From NCBI RefSeq assembly GCF_003544935.1, contig NZ_CP032098.1, positions 930,001-994,000 of the forward strand: a stretch of 64,000 nt of DNA. The letters run 5' to 3'. The DNA comes from Malaciobacter molluscorum LMG 25693. GTDB taxonomy: Bacteria; Campylobacterota; Campylobacteria; Campylobacterales; Arcobacteraceae. Below are positions 35,514 through 47,928 of the stretch, piece after piece. The position numbers and the translations under genes are program-made. The stretch's first letter is position 1. The number at the start of each line of letters is the position of its first letter. The notes beneath the pieces were generated by a model that did not search any database, was not told where the DNA came from, and saw only the letters and a program-made list of their open reading frames with translations.

Positions 35514-35597
35514 TAATTATTTTACAAAAAAAATAGTTAAAAGTTGATATTAAATATAAAACTGTTTTTTTGTTTAAATTTGATATTTAATTAATTT

Positions 35598-35670
35598 GGT
35601 AAAAAAAATTTTAACTTTTAAGTATAAGTTAAGAGTAGAAGGAATAAAATTTGGTAAATAAAATTTTACC
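35598..35670. promoter_or_regulatory. Tandem GGTAAA-type operators of fdh1
   Basis: A one-mismatch repeat at 35598-35615 and a perfect GGTAAA-N6-TTTACC at 35653-35670, with start-to-start spacing of 55 bases. The same layout appears before the gene at 40717. Confidence 0.55.
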
Positions 35671-35783
35671 AAAAGGGATTTCAAAATTACTTTTTTAAAT
35701 CTCCTTAAAAATAATTTTATTTTTTTAATTCCTATTTTATAGTATTTAAAGACTATTTTTGTCTTGTTTTACATAAGAAGTAA

Positions 35784-35812: not shown

Positions 35813-36546
35813 AAAATATGCTTGGAGGAAGCCATGAAAGAGAATAGAAGGAGTTTTATAAAAAAGACTCTAAGTGCAAGTGCATTAGTGGCAGCAGGAA
35901 GTACAGTTGCAATAGCAAGTACAAAAAGCGAGAATAATGCAAGTTCAAATGGTGTCGTAGTAGGGAAATCTCCTAAAAAAGAGATTTTATACAAACAAAC
36001 AGCCCAATGGGATGCTTTTTATAAAGCTAGTTATTAATATAAGGGGAAAAGATAATGAGTAAAGATGAGCTCAAAGATATATCTTTGAAACTTGGAAGAA
36101 GAAATTTTCTAAAACTTGCTTCAATCGGTGCAGGAATTGGTGCAACATCAATGTTTGCATCAACAAATAATGTTAGAGAAGCAACAAAAGAAGAGATAAA
36201 AAATCCTTTTCCAGGATCAAAGAAAGTAAAAACAATATGCAGCATATGCTCAGCAGGATGCGGAGTAGTAGCAGAAGTACAAAATGGAGTTTGGGTAAGA
36301 CAAGATGTGGCACAAGACCATCCAATAAGTGAAGGAAGTCACTGTTGTAAAGGTATAGACCAAATAGATTTAGTAAAAAGTAAACAAAGAGTAAAACATC
36401 CACTAAAAAAAGTAGATGGGAAATGGCAAAGAATATCTTGGAAACAAGCAATAGAAGAGATATCAGAGAAGATGCTAAAACTAAGAGCAGAGAATGGTCC
36501 AGATGTGGCGATGTTCTTAGGATCAGCAAAATTTAATCTACAACAA
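35813..36546 (+). repeat. Duplicated block A, copy 1
   Basis: 734 bases that read identically to 43288-44021. Covers the ribosome site and whole Tat-target gene and the first 164 codons of fdhA1. Identity begins and stops abruptly. Confidence 0.85.
35834..36037 (+). CDS. Formate dehydrogenase region Tat-target protein, copy 1
   Basis: A 67-residue protein with a twin-arginine signal (RRSFIKKTLSASALVAAGS) and a short mature part ending KKEILYKQTAQWDAFYKASY. It belongs to the small conserved family found directly before fdhA in many bacteria, function unknown. GGAGG five bases before the ATG decides the start over an in-frame upstream TTG. It is identical to the copy at 43309. Confidence 0.85.
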   Translation: MKENRRSFIKKTLSASALVAAGSTVAIASTKSENNASSNGVVVGKSPKKEILYKQTAQWDAFYKASY

Positions 36547-38895
36547 TCTTTTTATTTTAGTAAATTTGCAGCAATGTGGGGAACAAACAATATAGATCAT
36601 GTTGCAAGAGTTTGTCATAGTGCTTCTGTAGCAGGAGCATCAAATACATGGGGTTATGGTGCTATGACAAATCACTTTGGTGATGTTGTTGGAAACTCAA
36701 AAGCTATATTAATGATTGGAGCAAATTCAGCATCTGCCTGTCCAATTGGGTTTAAGCATTTCCTTCAAGCAAAAGATAGAAATAATGCTAAATTAATTGT
36801 GGTTGATCCAGTTTATACAAAATCTGCAGCAAAAGCAGATCATTATTTAAGAATAAGAACTGGTACAGATGTTGCGTTTATATATGGATTATTACATCTA
36901 ATATTTAAAAATGGCTGGGAAGATAAAGAATTTATCGATAGTCGTGTTTATGGTATGGATAAAGTAAGGCAAGAAGCTAAAAAATGGACACCAGAAGTAA
37001 CAGCTGATGTTACAGGAATTCCTGCTGAAAAAATTATTCAAATAACTAGATTATTTGCGACTACAAAGCCTTCAACTGTTGTTTGGGCTTTAGGTATCAC
37101 TCAACATAGTACAGGTACATCAAATACTAGAATTCTTCCAATACTTCAATTAGTATTAGGAAACGCAGGTAAAAAAGGAGGAGGATGTAATATCATTAGA
37201 GGACATGATAATGTTCAAGGTTCTACTGATATGTGTAATTTAGCAGATTCTCTTCCTGGATACTATGGATTAAGTGATGATGCATGGAAGTATTATTCAA
37301 AAGCATGGGGTGTTGATTATGAATGGATGAAAGGAAGATTTCATTCTCCTAAATGGATGAATGAAAAAGGATTTTCATTAGCAAAATGGTGGCAAGGTGT
37401 TTTACAAGAAGAAAAAACTTATTCTTCAAGTCCAATTAGAGCTTTATGGGTTCAAGGTACTGGTATCACATCTATGACTCAGCAAGTAAAAATACAAGAA
37501 GCAATTAAAAAACTTGATTTACTTGTTATTGCAGAACCTTTTGTAAATGAAGCTGCAATATTAAGTGATAGAAAAGATGGAATATATATCATACCAGCAG
37601 CAACACAATTTGAAACAGAAGGAAGTGTAACTGCAAGTAATAGATCTTCTCAATGGAGAAGTAAAGTTGTAGATCCATTATATGAATCTAAACCTGATCA
37701 TGAGATTATGTTTGAATTTGCTAAAAAATTTGGTTTTTATGATGAGTTTATTAGTGGAATGAAACATGATATAGTTGATGGTGAAATTAAAAAAGTAAAA
37801 GATGATTTTATTTGGCCAGATGATGCAGCAAATGAGTTAGCAAGAACTGTAAAAACAATTGGTCTTGGTGGTTGGACAGCAAAAAGACTTAGAGAACATC
37901 AAGAAAATTGGCATCTATTTGATCCAATAACATTAGCAGGTTATGGAAAAATGAAAGGTCAATATTATGGCTTACCTTGGCCATGTTGGGATACAAAACA
38001 TCCCGGAAGTCCTATTTTATATAATCCAGATGTACCAGTAAATGAAGGTGGTATGGGATTTAGAAATAGATTTGGACTTGAACATGATGGTGTTTCTCAA
38101 CTAGCAAGTAGTTCTGTAACTGTTGAAAAATCTGAAGTAAAAGGTGGATATCCTGAAATCACTAAAGAAAATATTGAAAGAGTTTTAGGAATTAAATTAA
38201 CTCAAGAAGAAAAAAGAAAAATGGGTGCAAACTGGAAAGTTGATTTAAGTGGAATTATTCAAGAAAAATGTAGAGAAAAAGGGGTATGTGTGTATGGAAA
38301 TGCAAAAGCAAGAGCAATTGTATGGACATTCCCAGATCCAGTTCCAAAACATAGAGAACCAATTCATTCTCCAAGATTTGATTTAGTTAAAAAATATCCA
38401 ACTTACCCTGATCAAAAAAATAACTTTAGGGTTGATGTTAAATTTAAATCTGAACAAATGGAACAAGATTGGTCAAAAGAGTTCCCAACTATGATAGTTA
38501 CGATGAGATTAGTTAATTTAAGTGGTGCTGGTATGATTGAAAGAACAAGTAAATATCTTTCTCATATAACTCCTGAAATGTTTGCTCATATTCACCCTGA
38601 ATTAGCAGCTAAACATGGAATTAGAGATAAAGATGATATGTGGTTACACTCTCCTCAAGGAACTAAGATAAAAATTAAAGCTTATTATAATTATAGTGTA
38701 ACACCAGATCGTGTAGCTATGCCATATAATTTTGCAGGTATGATGCAAGGTGTTGATTTAACTCATAGATATCCAGAAGGAACAAAACCTTATGTAAATG
38801 GTGAAAGTTCAAATACTATTACAAATTATGGATTTGATGTAATAACACAAATACCTGAGTTCAATGCAGGTCTTTGTAGAATTGAAAGAGCGTAG
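36055..38895 (+). CDS. fdhA: Formate dehydrogenase catalytic subunit, Cys form (FdhA1)
   Basis: A 946-residue periplasmic molybdopterin enzyme oxidising formate to CO2. Twin-arginine signal GRRNFLK near residue 15, then a [4Fe-4S] motif CSICSAGC with a fourth Cys in HCCKG. The metal ligand is Cys187 (TGT at 36613-36615) in ARVCHSAS, followed by the conserved His. The paralogues have UGA (Sec) at this codon. The SECIS-like hairpin seen in them is destroyed here. Bis-MGD binding motifs continue to the end (GESSNTITNYGFD). Mo or W cannot be told apart from sequence, but nearby tupABC favours W. Confidence 0.95.
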   Translation: MSKDELKDISLKLGRRNFLKLASIGAGIGATSMFASTNNVREATKEEIKNPFPGSKKVKTICSICSAGCGVVAEVQNGVWVRQDVAQDHPISEGSHCCKGIDQIDLVKSKQRVKHPLKKVDGKWQRISWKQAIEEISEKMLKLRAENGPDVAMFLGSAKFNLQQSFYFSKFAAMWGTNNIDHVARVCHSASVAGASNTWGYGAMTNHFGDVVGNSKAILMIGANSASACPIGFKHFLQAKDRNNAKLIVVDPVYTKSAAKADHYLRIRTGTDVAFIYGLLHLIFKNGWEDKEFIDSRVYGMDKVRQEAKKWTPEVTADVTGIPAEKIIQITRLFATTKPSTVVWALGITQHSTGTSNTRILPILQLVLGNAGKKGGGCNIIRGHDNVQGSTDMCNLADSLPGYYGLSDDAWKYYSKAWGVDYEWMKGRFHSPKWMNEKGFSLAKWWQGVLQEEKTYSSSPIRALWVQGTGITSMTQQVKIQEAIKKLDLLVIAEPFVNEAAILSDRKDGIYIIPAATQFETEGSVTASNRSSQWRSKVVDPLYESKPDHEIMFEFAKKFGFYDEFISGMKHDIVDGEIKKVKDDFIWPDDAANELARTVKTIGLGGWTAKRLREHQENWHLFDPITLAGYGKMKGQYYGLPWPCWDTKHPGSPILYNPDVPVNEGGMGFRNRFGLEHDGVSQLASSSVTVEKSEVKGGYPEITKENIERVLGIKLTQEEKRKMGANWKVDLSGIIQEKCREKGVCVYGNAKARAIVWTFPDPVPKHREPIHSPRFDLVKKYPTYPDQKNNFRVDVKFKSEQMEQDWSKEFPTMIVTMRLVNLSGAGMIERTSKYLSHITPEMFAHIHPELAAKHGIRDKDDMWLHSPQGTKIKIKAYYNYSVTPDRVAMPYNFAGMMQGVDLTHRYPEGTKPYVNGESSNTITNYGFDVITQIPEFNAGLCRIERA

Positions 38896-38905
38896 GAGTA
38901 ATAGT

Positions 38906-39046
38906 ATGAATAATATGTTAAATGTAAAGTATTATTATCAAAAAGATATAAGTGAGAGTTCAAACACAATCACGAATTATGGATTTGATGTAATAACACA
39001 AATACCTGAGTTCAACGCAGGTCTTTGTAGAATCGAAAGAGCATAG
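38906..39046 (+). pseudogene. Chimeric remnant: old fdhB1 start fused to FdhA tail
   Basis: A 46-codon frame with a good ribosome site (AGGAG). The first 15 residues, MNNMLNVKYYYQKDI, align with the FdhB start MSEMARMKFYCDEDR at about six positions. From 38952 the sequence switches to an exact copy of the last 31 codons of fdhA2. The most economical reading is that recombination replaced a native, more divergent fdhB1 with block B from operon 2 and left this scrap. It is probably not functional. Confidence 0.75.
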
Positions 39047-39055
39047 GAGTAAAGT

Positions 39056-39658
39056 ATGAGTGAAATGGCAAGAATGAAATTTTATTGCGATGAAGATAGA
39101 TGTATAGAGTGCTTTGCTTGTACAGTAGGATGTTCAGAAGCACATGAACTACCAACAGGAATAAGTAGAAGAAAAGTTATTACATTAAATGAAGGGATAG
39201 AAGGATTAGAATATTCTTTATCAATAGCTTGTATGCATTGTACAGATGCACCTTGCGAACAAGTGTGTCCAGTAGATTGCTTCTATATAAGAGAAGATGG
39301 GATAGTTCTTCATGATAAAGAGAAATGTATAGGATGCGGATATTGTCTATACGCTTGTCCATTTGGAGCACCACAATTTCCAAGAGATGGAGCATTTGGA
39401 ATAAAAGGAGCAATGGATAAATGTACAATGTGTGCAGGAGGACCACTAGAAACAAATAGTGAACACGAAAGAGAACTTTATGGACAAAATAGAATAGCAG
39501 AAGGTAAAGTTCCAATGTGTGCAGCAGTATGTTCAACAAATGCACTATTAGTAGGTGATTCACAAAAAGTATCTGAAATATATAGACAAAGAGTTCTATC
39601 AAGAGGACATAAGCATAATGACTCTCCAGTAGCATGGAGTTCGGCTTATAAATCTTAA
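39056..39658 (+). CDS. fdhB: Formate dehydrogenase iron-sulfur subunit (copy 1)
   Basis: A 200-residue electron-transfer subunit with four [4Fe-4S] clusters in the usual order: CIECFACTVGC, CMHCTDAPCEQVC, CIGCGYCLYAC and CTMCAG with later CAAVC. It takes electrons from FdhA to the FdhC haems. No signal peptide of its own; it would be exported with Tat-targeted FdhA. It is identical in protein sequence to the copy at 46380 because of block B. Confidence 0.95.
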   Translation: MSEMARMKFYCDEDRCIECFACTVGCSEAHELPTGISRRKVITLNEGIEGLEYSLSIACMHCTDAPCEQVCPVDCFYIREDGIVLHDKEKCIGCGYCLYACPFGAPQFPRDGAFGIKGAMDKCTMCAGGPLETNSEHERELYGQNRIAEGKVPMCAAVCSTNALLVGDSQKVSEIYRQRVLSRGHKHNDSPVAWSSAYKS

Positions 39659-39671
39659 AGAAAGAATTAAT

Positions 39672-40565
39672 ATGAAAATAAGAAGTATATTAATCCTAAT
39701 CTTAGCACTAAGTTCACTAGCATTTGCTAGTGAAAGTGCAATATTTGGTAAAGATTTAATACCAAATATATTAGCATACGACAAAGAAGGAAGTTTACAT
39801 TTAGGTAAATGGTTTACACTTTTACAAAGTACATATTTTAAACCTATATTTTTAGGTGTATTAATAGGAGTACCAACAGTCTTTTTTATACACTACAAAA
39901 TAATAGGACCAATGATATTTTCACATGATAGAAAAAAGATATTTGTTTTTTCAGTATTCAACAGAATAATACACACAATAGCAGCAATAGCATTTATATT
40001 AATAGTACCAACAGGATTTGTAATCGTATTTGGAACAACATTTGGAGGTGGAGCATTTGTAAGAATATGCAAAGATATACATGCAATAGCAACAATATTA
40101 TTTGTAATATCAGTAATACCAATGTTAATAATGTGGTTTAAAGATATGCTACCAACAAGTGATGATATAAAATGGCTAATGATCCTAGGAGGATATTTAA
40201 ACAAAAGAAAAGATCCTATTCCAGCAGGAAGATTTAATGCAGGACAAAAGATGTGGTTTTACGTATGTACATTTGGAGGAATTGTAATGATTCTAACAGG
40301 TGCAATAATGTTTTTCCAAGATTTTAAAATAGACTTTATAGCATCATTAGGAATAACACAAATAGATTTATTAAGAGCAAGTGCGATAGTACATAATGTA
40401 TTAGGATTCGCAGTAGCAGCACTATTTATGACTCACATATATATGTCAGTATTTGCAATAAAAGGTGCAATACATAGTATAATAACAGGATATAAAGAGG
40501 AAGAAGAAGTAGAAATATTACATAGCACTTTTTATAAAAAGTTAAAAAATGACAAAAAAATTTAA
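39672..40565 (+). CDS. fdhC: Formate dehydrogenase cytochrome b subunit (copy 1)
   Basis: A 297-residue membrane subunit. A signal-like first segment (ILILALSSLAFAS) is followed by about five helices. Histidines in RIIHTIA, DIHAIA, IVHNVL and MTHIYM are likely haem b ligands. It passes electrons to menaquinone. Identical to the copy at 46996. No terminator was seen after it, so transcripts may run into the next gene. Confidence 0.93.
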   Translation: MKIRSILILILALSSLAFASESAIFGKDLIPNILAYDKEGSLHLGKWFTLLQSTYFKPIFLGVLIGVPTVFFIHYKIIGPMIFSHDRKKIFVFSVFNRIIHTIAAIAFILIVPTGFVIVFGTTFGGGAFVRICKDIHAIATILFVISVIPMLIMWFKDMLPTSDDIKWLMILGGYLNKRKDPIPAGRFNAGQKMWFYVCTFGGIVMILTGAIMFFQDFKIDFIASLGITQIDLLRASAIVHNVLGFAVAALFMTHIYMSVFAIKGAIHSIITGYKEEEEVEILHSTFYKKLKNDKKI

Positions 40566-40622
40566 AATTATAATAATATAAATAATAATTTTTTAAGGGT
40601 ATCATAAAATAATTATAAGATT

Positions 40623-40695
40623 GGTAAAAAAATCTTTAATTATTAAGTGTAAGTTAAGAGTTTAAGGAATAAAATTAGGTAAAAATATATTTACC
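40623..40695. promoter_or_regulatory. Tandem GGTAAA-type operators before FeS/TorD genes
   Basis: A two-mismatch repeat at 40623-40640 and a perfect GGTAAA-N6-TTTACC at 40678-40695, again 55 bases apart. The intervening TTAAGTGTAAGTTAAGAG matches the fdh1 module. The second repeat ends 21 bases before the ATG at 40717. Confidence 0.55.
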
Positions 40696-40716
40696 AAAAA
40701 ACGAGAAAGGCTAAAT

Positions 40717-43287: not shown

Positions 43288-44021
43288 AAAATATGCTTGG
43301 AGGAAGCCATGAAAGAGAATAGAAGGAGTTTTATAAAAAAGACTCTAAGTGCAAGTGCATTAGTGGCAGCAGGAAGTACAGTTGCAATAGCAAGTACAAA
43401 AAGCGAGAATAATGCAAGTTCAAATGGTGTCGTAGTAGGGAAATCTCCTAAAAAAGAGATTTTATACAAACAAACAGCCCAATGGGATGCTTTTTATAAA
43501 GCTAGTTATTAATATAAGGGGAAAAGATAATGAGTAAAGATGAGCTCAAAGATATATCTTTGAAACTTGGAAGAAGAAATTTTCTAAAACTTGCTTCAAT
43601 CGGTGCAGGAATTGGTGCAACATCAATGTTTGCATCAACAAATAATGTTAGAGAAGCAACAAAAGAAGAGATAAAAAATCCTTTTCCAGGATCAAAGAAA
43701 GTAAAAACAATATGCAGCATATGCTCAGCAGGATGCGGAGTAGTAGCAGAAGTACAAAATGGAGTTTGGGTAAGACAAGATGTGGCACAAGACCATCCAA
43801 TAAGTGAAGGAAGTCACTGTTGTAAAGGTATAGACCAAATAGATTTAGTAAAAAGTAAACAAAGAGTAAAACATCCACTAAAAAAAGTAGATGGGAAATG
43901 GCAAAGAATATCTTGGAAACAAGCAATAGAAGAGATATCAGAGAAGATGCTAAAACTAAGAGCAGAGAATGGTCCAGATGTGGCGATGTTCTTAGGATCA
44001 GCAAAATTTAATCTACAACAA
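43288..44021 (+). repeat. Duplicated block A, copy 2
   Basis: Partner of 35813-36546. Upstream flanks of the two copies are unrelated beyond the TATGC motif. Confidence 0.85.
43309..43512 (+). CDS. Formate dehydrogenase region Tat-target protein, copy 2
   Basis: Identical to the 67-residue protein at 35834. The frame is open further upstream to an ATG at 43237, which would add 24 residues before the twin-arginine motif. GGAGG directly before 43309 and comparison with the copies at 35834 and 49179 favour the shorter form. Confidence 0.85.
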   Translation: MKENRRSFIKKTLSASALVAAGSTVAIASTKSENNASSNGVVVGKSPKKEILYKQTAQWDAFYKASY

Positions 44022-46370
44022 GCTTTTTATTTTAGAAAGTTTGCAGCAATGTGGGGAACAAACAATATAGATCACGTAGCTAGAATCTGACATAGTGCAA
44101 CAGTTGCCGGTGTGGCAAATACATGGGGTTATGGCGCTATGACAAATCACTTTGGTGATGTTGTTGGAAACTCAAAAGCTATGTTAATGATTGGAGCAAA
44201 TTCAGCTGTAGCAAATCCGATTGGGTTTAAGCATTTCCTTCAAGCAAAAGATAGAAATAATGCTAAATTAATTGTGGTTGATCCAGTTTATACAAAATCT
44301 GCAGCAAAAGCAGATCATTATTTAAGAATAAGAACTGGTACAGATGTTGCGTTTATATATGGATTATTACATCTAATATTTAAAAATGGCTGGGAAGATA
44401 AAGAATTTATCGATAGTCGTGTTTATGGTATGGATGAAGTAAGGCAAGAAGCTAAAAAATGGACACCAGAAGTAACGGCTGATGTTACAGGAATTCCTGC
44501 TGAAAAAATTATTCAGCTTGCAACTTTATTAGCAAAAACGAAACCAACTACTATCGTTTGGGCTTTAGGTATCACTCAACATAGTACAGGTACATCAAAT
44601 ACTAGAATTCTTCCAATACTTCAATTAGTATTAGGAAATATGGGTAAAAAAGGTGGAGGATGTAATATCATTAGAGGACATGATAATGTTCAAGGTTCTA
44701 CTGATATGTGTTGTCTTTCTGATAGTTTACCAGGGTATTATGGTTTAAGTGAAGCTTCATGGAAATATTACTCAAAAGCATGGGGTGTTGATTATGAATG
44801 GATGAAAGGAAGATTTCATTCTCCTAAATGGATGAATGAAAAAGGATTTTCATTAGCGAAATGGTGGCAAGGTGTTTTACAAGAAGAAAAAACTTATTCT
44901 TCAAGTCCAATTAGAGCTTTATGGGTTCAAGGTACTGGTATCACATCAATGGCACAAACTGCTAAAGTAAAAGAGGCTTTAGACAAATTAGACCTTTTAG
45001 TAGTAGCAGAACCATTTGTAAATGAAGCAGCTGTTATTACAAATAAAACAGATAATATTTACGTACTTCCTGTTTGTACACAATTTGAAACAGAAGGAAG
45101 TGTAACAGCAACAAATAGATCTTCTCAATGGAGAAGTAAAGTTGTAGATCCATTATATGAAAGTAAAGAAGATCATCAAGTGATGTTTGAATTTGCTAAA
45201 AAATTTGGTTTTTATGATGAATATGTAAAAGCAATGAAAATGGATATCGTGGACAATGAAATAAAAGTTGTAAAAGATGACTTTATTTGGCCAGATGATG
45301 CAGCAAATGAATTAGCAAGAACAGTAAAAACAATTGGTCTTGGTGGTTGGACAGCAAAAAGACTTAGAGAACATCAAGAAAATTGGCATCTATTTGATCC
45401 AATAACATTAGCAGGTTATGGAAAAATGAAAGGTCAATATTATGGCTTACCTTGGCCATGTTGGGATACAAAACATCCAGGAAGTCCAATACTTTATGAT
45501 GTTGATACACCTATGTTAAAAGGTGGTATGGGATTTAGAAATAGATTTGGACTTGAACATGATGGTGTTTCTCAATTACCAGATGAAAGAGTAAGTGTAA
45601 AAGGTTCAAAAGTAAAAGGTGGATATCCTGAAATCACTAAAGAAAATATTGAAAGAGTTTTAGGAATTAAATTAACTCAAGAAGAAAAAAGAAAAATGGG
45701 TGCAAACTGGAAAGTTGATTTAAGTGGAATTATTCAAGAAAAATGTAATGAAGCTGGAGTGTGTGTGTATGGAAATGCAAAAGCAAGAGCAAAAGTGTGG
45801 ACATTCCCAGATCCAGTTCCAAAACATAGAGAGCCAATTCACTCTCCAAGATTTGATTTAGTTAAAAAATATCCTACATATGAGGATCAAACTAATAACT
45901 TTAGGGTTGATGTTAAGTTTAAATCTGAACAAATGGAACAAGATTGGTCAAAAGAGTTCCCAACTATGTTGGTTACTATGAGATTAGTTAATTTAAGTGG
46001 TGCTGGTATGATTGAAAGAACAAGTAAATATCTTTCTCATATAACTCCTGATATGTTTGCGAATATTAATCCAGAATTAGCAGCAAAATATGGATTAAGA
46101 GATGGTGATATGATGTGGTTACATTCACCTCAAGGTACAAAAATTAAAGTAAAAGCTCAATACAGTAATAGAGTTACTCCTGATAGAATTGCTCTACCAT
46201 ATAACTTTGCCGGTGTTATGCAAGGAGTAGATATGAGTGCAAATTATCCAGAAGGGACAAAACCATATACAACAGGTGAGAGTTCAAACACAATCACGAA
46301 TTATGGATTTGATGTAATAACACAAATACCTGAGTTCAACGCAGGTCTTTGTAGAATCGAAAGAGCATAG
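43530..46370 (+). CDS. fdhA: Formate dehydrogenase catalytic subunit, selenoprotein (FdhA2)
   Basis: A 946-residue selenoprotein when TGA at 44088-44090 (codon 187) is read as selenocysteine, in ARI-Sec-HSATVAG. The same reading frame continues without fault for 760 codons after it. Tat signal GRRNFLK and the [4Fe-4S] CSICSAGC motif are as in FdhA1. A SECIS-like hairpin starts 13 bases after the UGA. The first 164 codons are identical to fdhA1 in DNA, and the rest is highly similar in patches. Sec coordinates Mo/W and gives faster formate oxidation than Cys in related enzymes. Confidence 0.95.
44088..44118 (+). promoter_or_regulatory. UGA-Sec codon and SECIS-like hairpin of fdhA2
   Basis: UGA (44088-44090), 13-base spacer, then stem TTGCC (44104-44108) and GGCAA (44114-44118) around loop GGTGT. 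The loop contains the GGU seen in the E. coli fdhF SECIS, and the distance lies in the bacterial range. Confidence 0.85.
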
Positions 46371-46379
46371 GAGTAAAGT

Positions 46380-46982
46380 ATGAGTGAAATGGCAAGAATG
46401 AAATTTTATTGCGATGAAGATAGATGTATAGAGTGCTTTGCTTGTACAGTAGGATGTTCAGAAGCACATGAACTACCAACAGGAATAAGTAGAAGAAAAG
46501 TTATTACATTAAATGAAGGGATAGAAGGATTAGAATATTCTTTATCAATAGCTTGTATGCATTGTACAGATGCACCTTGCGAACAAGTGTGTCCAGTAGA
46601 TTGCTTCTATATAAGAGAAGATGGGATAGTTCTTCATGATAAAGAGAAATGTATAGGATGCGGATATTGTCTATACGCTTGTCCATTTGGAGCACCACAA
46701 TTTCCAAGAGATGGAGCATTTGGAATAAAAGGAGCAATGGATAAATGTACAATGTGTGCAGGAGGACCACTAGAAACAAATAGTGAACACGAAAGAGAAC
46801 TTTATGGACAAAATAGAATAGCAGAAGGTAAAGTTCCAATGTGTGCAGCAGTATGTTCAACAAATGCACTATTAGTAGGTGATTCACAAAAAGTATCTGA
46901 AATATATAGACAAAGAGTTCTATCAAGAGGACATAAGCATAATGACTCTCCAGTAGCATGGAGTTCGGCTTATAAATCTTAA
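46380..46982 (+). CDS. fdhB: Formate dehydrogenase iron-sulfur subunit (copy 2)
   Basis: Same 200-residue four-cluster protein as at 39056, here nine bases after the fdhA2 stop. This is probably the source copy, since it directly continues fdhA2. It differs from FdhB3 (52239) mainly near the first cluster (CIECFACTVGC against CIECDGCSVAC). Confidence 0.95.
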   Translation: MSEMARMKFYCDEDRCIECFACTVGCSEAHELPTGISRRKVITLNEGIEGLEYSLSIACMHCTDAPCEQVCPVDCFYIREDGIVLHDKEKCIGCGYCLYACPFGAPQFPRDGAFGIKGAMDKCTMCAGGPLETNSEHERELYGQNRIAEGKVPMCAAVCSTNALLVGDSQKVSEIYRQRVLSRGHKHNDSPVAWSSAYKS

Positions 46983-46995
46983 AGAAAGAATTAAT

Positions 46996-47889
46996 ATGAA
47001 AATAAGAAGTATATTAATCCTAATCTTAGCACTAAGTTCACTAGCATTTGCTAGTGAAAGTGCAATATTTGGTAAAGATTTAATACCAAATATATTAGCA
47101 TACGACAAAGAAGGAAGTTTACATTTAGGTAAATGGTTTACACTTTTACAAAGTACATATTTTAAACCTATATTTTTAGGTGTATTAATAGGAGTACCAA
47201 CAGTCTTTTTTATACACTACAAAATAATAGGACCAATGATATTTTCACATGATAGAAAAAAGATATTTGTTTTTTCAGTATTCAACAGAATAATACACAC
47301 AATAGCAGCAATAGCATTTATATTAATAGTACCAACAGGATTTGTAATCGTATTTGGAACAACATTTGGAGGTGGAGCATTTGTAAGAATATGCAAAGAT
47401 ATACATGCAATAGCAACAATATTATTTGTAATATCAGTAATACCAATGTTAATAATGTGGTTTAAAGATATGCTACCAACAAGTGATGATATAAAATGGC
47501 TAATGATCCTAGGAGGATATTTAAACAAAAGAAAAGATCCTATTCCAGCAGGAAGATTTAATGCAGGACAAAAGATGTGGTTTTACGTATGTACATTTGG
47601 AGGAATTGTAATGATTCTAACAGGTGCAATAATGTTTTTCCAAGATTTTAAAATAGACTTTATAGCATCATTAGGAATAACACAAATAGATTTATTAAGA
47701 GCAAGTGCGATAGTACATAATGTATTAGGATTCGCAGTAGCAGCACTATTTATGACTCACATATATATGTCAGTATTTGCAATAAAAGGTGCAATACATA
47801 GTATAATAACAGGATATAAAGAGGAAGAAGAAGTAGAAATATTACATAGCACTTTTTATAAAAAGTTAAAAAATGACAAAAAAATTTAA
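46996..47889 (+). CDS. fdhC: Formate dehydrogenase cytochrome b subunit (copy 2)
   Basis: Same 297-residue membrane cytochrome as at 39672. It ends operon 2 and is followed by a terminator, unlike copy 1, whose identity ends just before that hairpin. Confidence 0.93.
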   Translation: MKIRSILILILALSSLAFASESAIFGKDLIPNILAYDKEGSLHLGKWFTLLQSTYFKPIFLGVLIGVPTVFFIHYKIIGPMIFSHDRKKIFVFSVFNRIIHTIAAIAFILIVPTGFVIVFGTTFGGGAFVRICKDIHAIATILFVISVIPMLIMWFKDMLPTSDDIKWLMILGGYLNKRKDPIPAGRFNAGQKMWFYVCTFGGIVMILTGAIMFFQDFKIDFIASLGITQIDLLRASAIVHNVLGFAVAALFMTHIYMSVFAIKGAIHSIITGYKEEEEVEILHSTFYKKLKNDKKI

Positions 47890-47896
47890 AATTATA

Positions 47897-47928
47897 AAAA
47901 ATTCCTCTCTTTTTTGAGGGGATTTTTT
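47897..47928 (+). terminator. Terminator of fdh operon 2
   Basis: AATTCCTC pairs with GAGGGGATT (G-U pairs and one bulge) and is followed by six T residues. Confidence 0.65.

Follow-up and report, generated by a model that had tools for sequence, protein, structure and literature searches.

A 151-bp chimeric scar between fdhA and fdhB of a Cys-type formate dehydrogenase operon of Malaciobacter molluscorum, a small footprint of recombination between duplicate operons

The locus presented here resembles one described system, the concerted evolution of duplicated operons through gene conversion, both in the long identical tracts found at the two ends of otherwise 60-90 % identical paralogs and in the recurrence of the process in sister species. 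The difference is that in the present case an apparently decayed short insert, which has no counterpart in the second operon, edges the converted tract. Short tandem duplications with minimal sharing at the junction offer another parallel, since here also a 151-bp unit lies head to tail, but the two copies seem to have diverged since, one by conversion from the second operon and the other by decay. Homology at one end combined with illegitimate joining at the other is known from transformable bacteria and E. coli (PMC3240628), and such homology-facilitated illegitimate recombination could yield one non-homologous and one homologous junction. The known cases integrate foreign linear DNA, whereas here the donor would be a paralog from the same genome, by a mechanism that we infer. 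A search for literature on these operons in this genus found nothing.

The window, i.e. the whole stretch of DNA that was analysed, comprises 64,000 nucleotides of M. molluscorum LMG 25693 (NZ_CP032098.1, positions 930,001 to 994,000, forward strand) and is part of a single-contig genome of 2.80 Mb. It contains three formate dehydrogenase operons in a row, op1 (35.8-40.6 kb), op2 (43.3-47.9 kb) and op3 (49.2-53.8 kb), and the putative Sec genes selB, selA and selD are placed directly upstream of them. The Cys codon of fdhA1 in op1 is TGT (36613-36615) and stands where op2 has the in-frame TGA for Sec; op3 also has TGA. The features of op1 and their counterparts in op2 are collected in Table 1. 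A 79-bp repeat (85 % identical) is present before op1 (35596-35674) and again before a ferredoxin gene (40621-40699). In genome G059, which belongs to another genus, no operon breaks up the place of this repeat, so that op1 seems to have been inserted between the repeat copies.

Table 1. Features of the scar and of the operons involved (positions in the window)
Feature	Position	Strand	Basis
fdhA1, formate dehydrogenase catalytic subunit, Cys-type	36055..38895	+	Pfam Molybdopterin + Molydop_binding
fdhA2, in-frame TGA at 44088-44090; origin of the tail copy	43530..46370	+	
op1 fdhB, identical to op2 fdhB (46380-46982)	39056..39658	+	sequence identity, Pfam search
op1 fdhC (cytochrome b), identical to op2 fdhC (46996-47889)	39672..40565	+	sequence identity, Pfam search
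Native fdhA1 3' tail, copy 1 of the repeated stretch	38801..38895	+	repeat analysis, alignment
Spacer; TAGGAGTAA(T)AGTATG, the op2 fdhA-fdhB spacer with one extra base	38896..38905	+	
Putative decayed fdhB start (relic), 15 codons and first base of codon 16; found in the M. molluscorum genome only	38906..38951	+	
fdhA tail, copy 2, reading on in frame from the fdhB relic; same sequence as op2 46276-46370	38952..39046	+	
Chimeric frame of 46 codons, ATG 38906 to TAG 39046, no Pfam match	38906..39046	+	
3' converted tract, 1,622 bp identical to 46276-47897; first mismatch 40574	38952..40573	+	
5' converted tract, 734 bp identical to 43288-44021	35813..36546	+	

The fdhA1 gene ends with a TAG stop codon at 38895 and is followed by the chimeric frame, which encodes MNNMLNVKYYYQKDI and then SESSNTITNYGFDVITQIPEFNAGLCRIERA, that is 15 fdhB-like codons joined to 31 codons matching the fdhA2 tail; complete fdhB and fdhC genes lie downstream. 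The sequence-only reading of this DNA had described such a frame after fdhA1, fusing an fdhB-like start to the FdhA2 tail, and the coordinates and identities agree with it. It had placed the switch after 15 residues; the fusion is real, but the exact junction was moved to codon 16 (AGT, 38951-38953), at whose second base the tract shared with op2 begins. The native fdhA1 tail and the second tail copy are about 92 % identical, and an offset of 151 bp separates the direct repeats 38801-38901 and 38952-39052. The op1/op2 offset drops from 7475 upstream of the scar to 7324 downstream of it, and the difference, exactly 151, corresponds to the extra bases in op1. There are thus two head-to-tail copies with a constant offset of 151 that equals the length of the insert, as expected from a tandem duplication. 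The left junction shares only GT, and the right edge is where the op1/op2 homology ends.

The resemblance of the relic to fdhB was examined at both the DNA and protein level. Its 15 codons match the start of FdhB of op2 at 5 of 15 residues and 28 of 45 bases, and of all registers in FdhB the start fits best. The BLOSUM62 score of 28 obtained in this register was reached by none of 20,000 base shuffles and at none of the 2,252 other ATG sites within the window. For the DNA match alone P is about 0.0003-0.0004, and the DNA alignment of the spacer together with the relic start beats 5,000 of 5,000 shuffles. The shuffles and the other ATG sites rule out a chance likeness of these 15 residues to FdhB. 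The relic and the fdhB start are homologous in both DNA and protein, and the earlier description of the residues as aligned with the FdhB N-terminus yet diverged holds.

The same reading took the 15 residues for the start of a divergent native FdhB1, which is contradicted by the comparison with relatives. Among 62 distinct N-termini of FdhB, drawn from Arcobacteraceae and further relatives, the residues F9, D12 and C16 are invariant; the relic has Y9, Q12 and S16 and so lacks the MKFYCDxxRCIxC start with these invariant positions by which a native functional FdhB is recognised. The Cys-type FdhA1 forms a clade with the FdhA proteins of op1 in genome G002 and of G059 (support 100/100). When a full-length FdhB with a relic-like start was sought after a Cys-type FdhA, both of these relatives were found to have standard FdhB starts, MSEMSRMKFYCDEDRC and MSEMARMKFYCDEDRC, respectively. 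Protein, DNA and degenerate-pattern searches in the genus and in 104 genomes of the family, 397 of the class and 399 of the order yielded no full-length FdhB that starts like the relic; the op1 locus was the only match. A 29-bp DNA match to the relic (93 %) on contig C12 of genome G004 lies within an unrelated gene and was rejected as a chance similarity. The relic is fdhB-like but far more diverged than any fdhB start of the genus, as it would be if fdhB1 had been a pseudogene, or a genuinely divergent functional gene, before op2 overwrote it and left only the 15 codons of its start. Against such a history stand the intact standard fdhB of the two Cys-FdhA relatives, the outcome of the searches and the broken family-invariant positions; it is improbable, and its functional variant is refuted for the sampled species.

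The relic matches fdhB starts of the genus at 28-30 of 45 bases (Jukes-Cantor distance to intact starts 0.44-0.53), while the other starts share at least 42 of 45 among themselves. For fdhA1 the synonymous distance (dS) to its Cys orthologs is 0.50 and 0.63, and to fdhA2, outside the converted stretches, 0.62. The divergence of the relic is comparable to these distances, so that the relic looks long unconstrained; it somewhat exceeds what half of the pairwise dS would predict, and with only 45 bases the age estimate is rough. The second tail copy next to it shows no change at all relative to op2, so this copy was refreshed recently. The 15 codons are best read as a decayed remnant and not as the beginning of a native FdhB that diverged.

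Recombination between op1 and op2, as had been proposed, was confirmed, op1 fdhB and fdhC being now copies identical to those of op2. In G002 the Cys and Sec operons do not differ over the 1,689 bp that cover the last 120 bp of fdhA, fdhB and fdhC, and the junction there is normal and free of a scar. Genome G005 (L042, 3352-8051 and 10681-15380) has two Sec-type operons identical over 4,700 bp, and there one operon was apparently wholly overwritten by the other (op1 by op2 or the reverse). The op1 and op2 fdhB genes are identical within each of G000, G002 and G005, and between these genomes 16-28 % of third positions differ. The paralogs are thus closer within a genome than to their orthologs in sister species, in discrete tracts, as gene conversion would leave them, and homogenisation recurs within the genus and does not depend on the scar. 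Since G002 shows the same homogenised tract without a scar, the scar is unneeded to explain the fdhB-fdhC replacement. The proposal that the scar records the replacement of fdhB1-fdhC1 is therefore not required, and the geometry fits a 151-bp tandem duplication.

The account that we favour, at roughly an even chance, is that op1 underwent a short tandem duplication, of which the scar is the fossil, with later op1/op2 conversion and neutral decay of an orphan fdhB start. The stretch duplicated in tandem would have measured about 151 bp, starting close to the fdhA1 end (GTGAAAGTTC, 38801) and reaching into fdhB1 codon 16 (38951). This would have left the downstream operon intact (fdhA tail copy, fdhB and fdhC), preceded by an orphan fdhB start that the duplication fused in frame to the fdhA tail copy. 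Conversion from op2 would then have overwritten the downstream copy (38952-40573), as at the 5' end (35813-36546), and the orphan start, having no function, would have decayed at about the neutral rate. The operon would have stayed usable, with fdhB keeping its own ribosome site (AGGAGT within and after the fdhA-tail stop). The order of events and the duplication as their first step are what we infer; the duplication is deduced from the geometry, because the intermediate, in which the tail copy of the scar would be of fdhA1 type, did not turn up. The absence of this intermediate counts against the account, as do the usual instability of perfect 151-bp tandem repeats and the excess of the relic's divergence over the dS expectation, measured on few bases. 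The conversion must also reach to within 4 bp of the homology edge at 38952, although identity reaches the homology edge at 35813 too.

A serious rival, possible but rather doubtful, is a one-sided illegitimate replacement, in which a piece of op2 (fdhA2 tail, fdhB2 and fdhC2) replaced fdhB1-fdhC1 with a near-random left join in codon 16 of fdhB1 (two shared bases, GT) and a right join by homology, the fdhB1 start decaying afterwards. It yields the same present-day sequence as the tandem duplication and is slightly favoured by the op2 identity that starts exactly at the junction, with zero fdhA1-type bases in the tail copy; the present op2 type of this copy is compatible with later conversion as well as with direct op2 origin. 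On the other hand, a rare type of event is required, the replacement of fdhB-fdhC in G002 left no scar and makes one unnecessary, and the relic must far predate the last conversion, a need shared by the tandem duplication. The tandem duplication is the best model, explaining everything by common steps where the one-sided replacement needs a rarer event. Under both models the tract next to the relic was necessarily renewed long after the relic had ceased to function.

A junction made by misassembly in the repeated op1/op2 region was also considered. The junction lies between long perfect repeats of 734 and 1,622 bp, and a G004 contig has the 127-bp terminal fdhA overlap expected from collapsed repeats; misassembly would not, however, generate an fdhB-like sequence of 56 bp found nowhere else in the genome, which is assembled as a single 2.8-Mb contig, and an artefact is judged unlikely.

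The op1 fdhB gene retains the op2 ribosome site and spacing, so the Cys-type FdhA1 is expected to function with subunits identical to those of the Sec-type FdhA2. The 46-codon frame, which may be translated, has a good ribosome site, and its TAG overlaps the ribosome site of fdhB at a spacing suited to coupling, as would befit a selected small protein or a translation-coupling leader. In agreement with the earlier reading, the 46-residue peptide is not conserved in other species and is found in the M. molluscorum genome only; with no Pfam match and an unremarkable RNA fold around the fdhB start (z -0.56) the frame gave no sign of function, and a selected peptide or leader is most improbable. 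That the frame is kept because it carries ribosomes over the fdhA-tail copy to the fdhB ribosome site is hardly more credible; if true, a Cys-type formate dehydrogenase operon would have gained a new translation-coupling element from a recombination scar.

The 151-base scar is genuine, yet as a mark of recombination between duplicated operons it is small and ordinary. It provides a small, well-resolved example of an orphan fragment decaying beside duplicated operons that are being homogenised. The setting is of broader use: sister species keep, lose or merge Cys- and Sec-type formate dehydrogenases via conversion, and in both genomes carrying a Cys/Sec pair the Cys/Sec codon region is outside the long identical tracts. 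In the window this region of fdhA (36547-36744 versus 44022-44219) is distinct in op1 and op2, and the long identical tracts begin just upstream. Likewise, in G002 the segment from 1507 to 2559 of reversed L041, which contains codon 187, has no long identical run.

In the G004 draft the ends of contig 49 (L044) share a 127-bp identical overlap inside fdhA, and this draft probably holds two near-identical Sec operons, collapsed. The single FdhA of this formate dehydrogenase family in G059 (L145) is of Cys type and shares 93 % identity with FdhA1; neither selA nor selB gave a match in this genome, and a Cys paralog with later loss of the Sec pathway is possible. In genome G100 the FdhA gene (G100:C3) is without an internal stop, and the selB relative (G100:C77:1756-3591) has one internal TAG, which may mark a pseudogene or a sequencing error.
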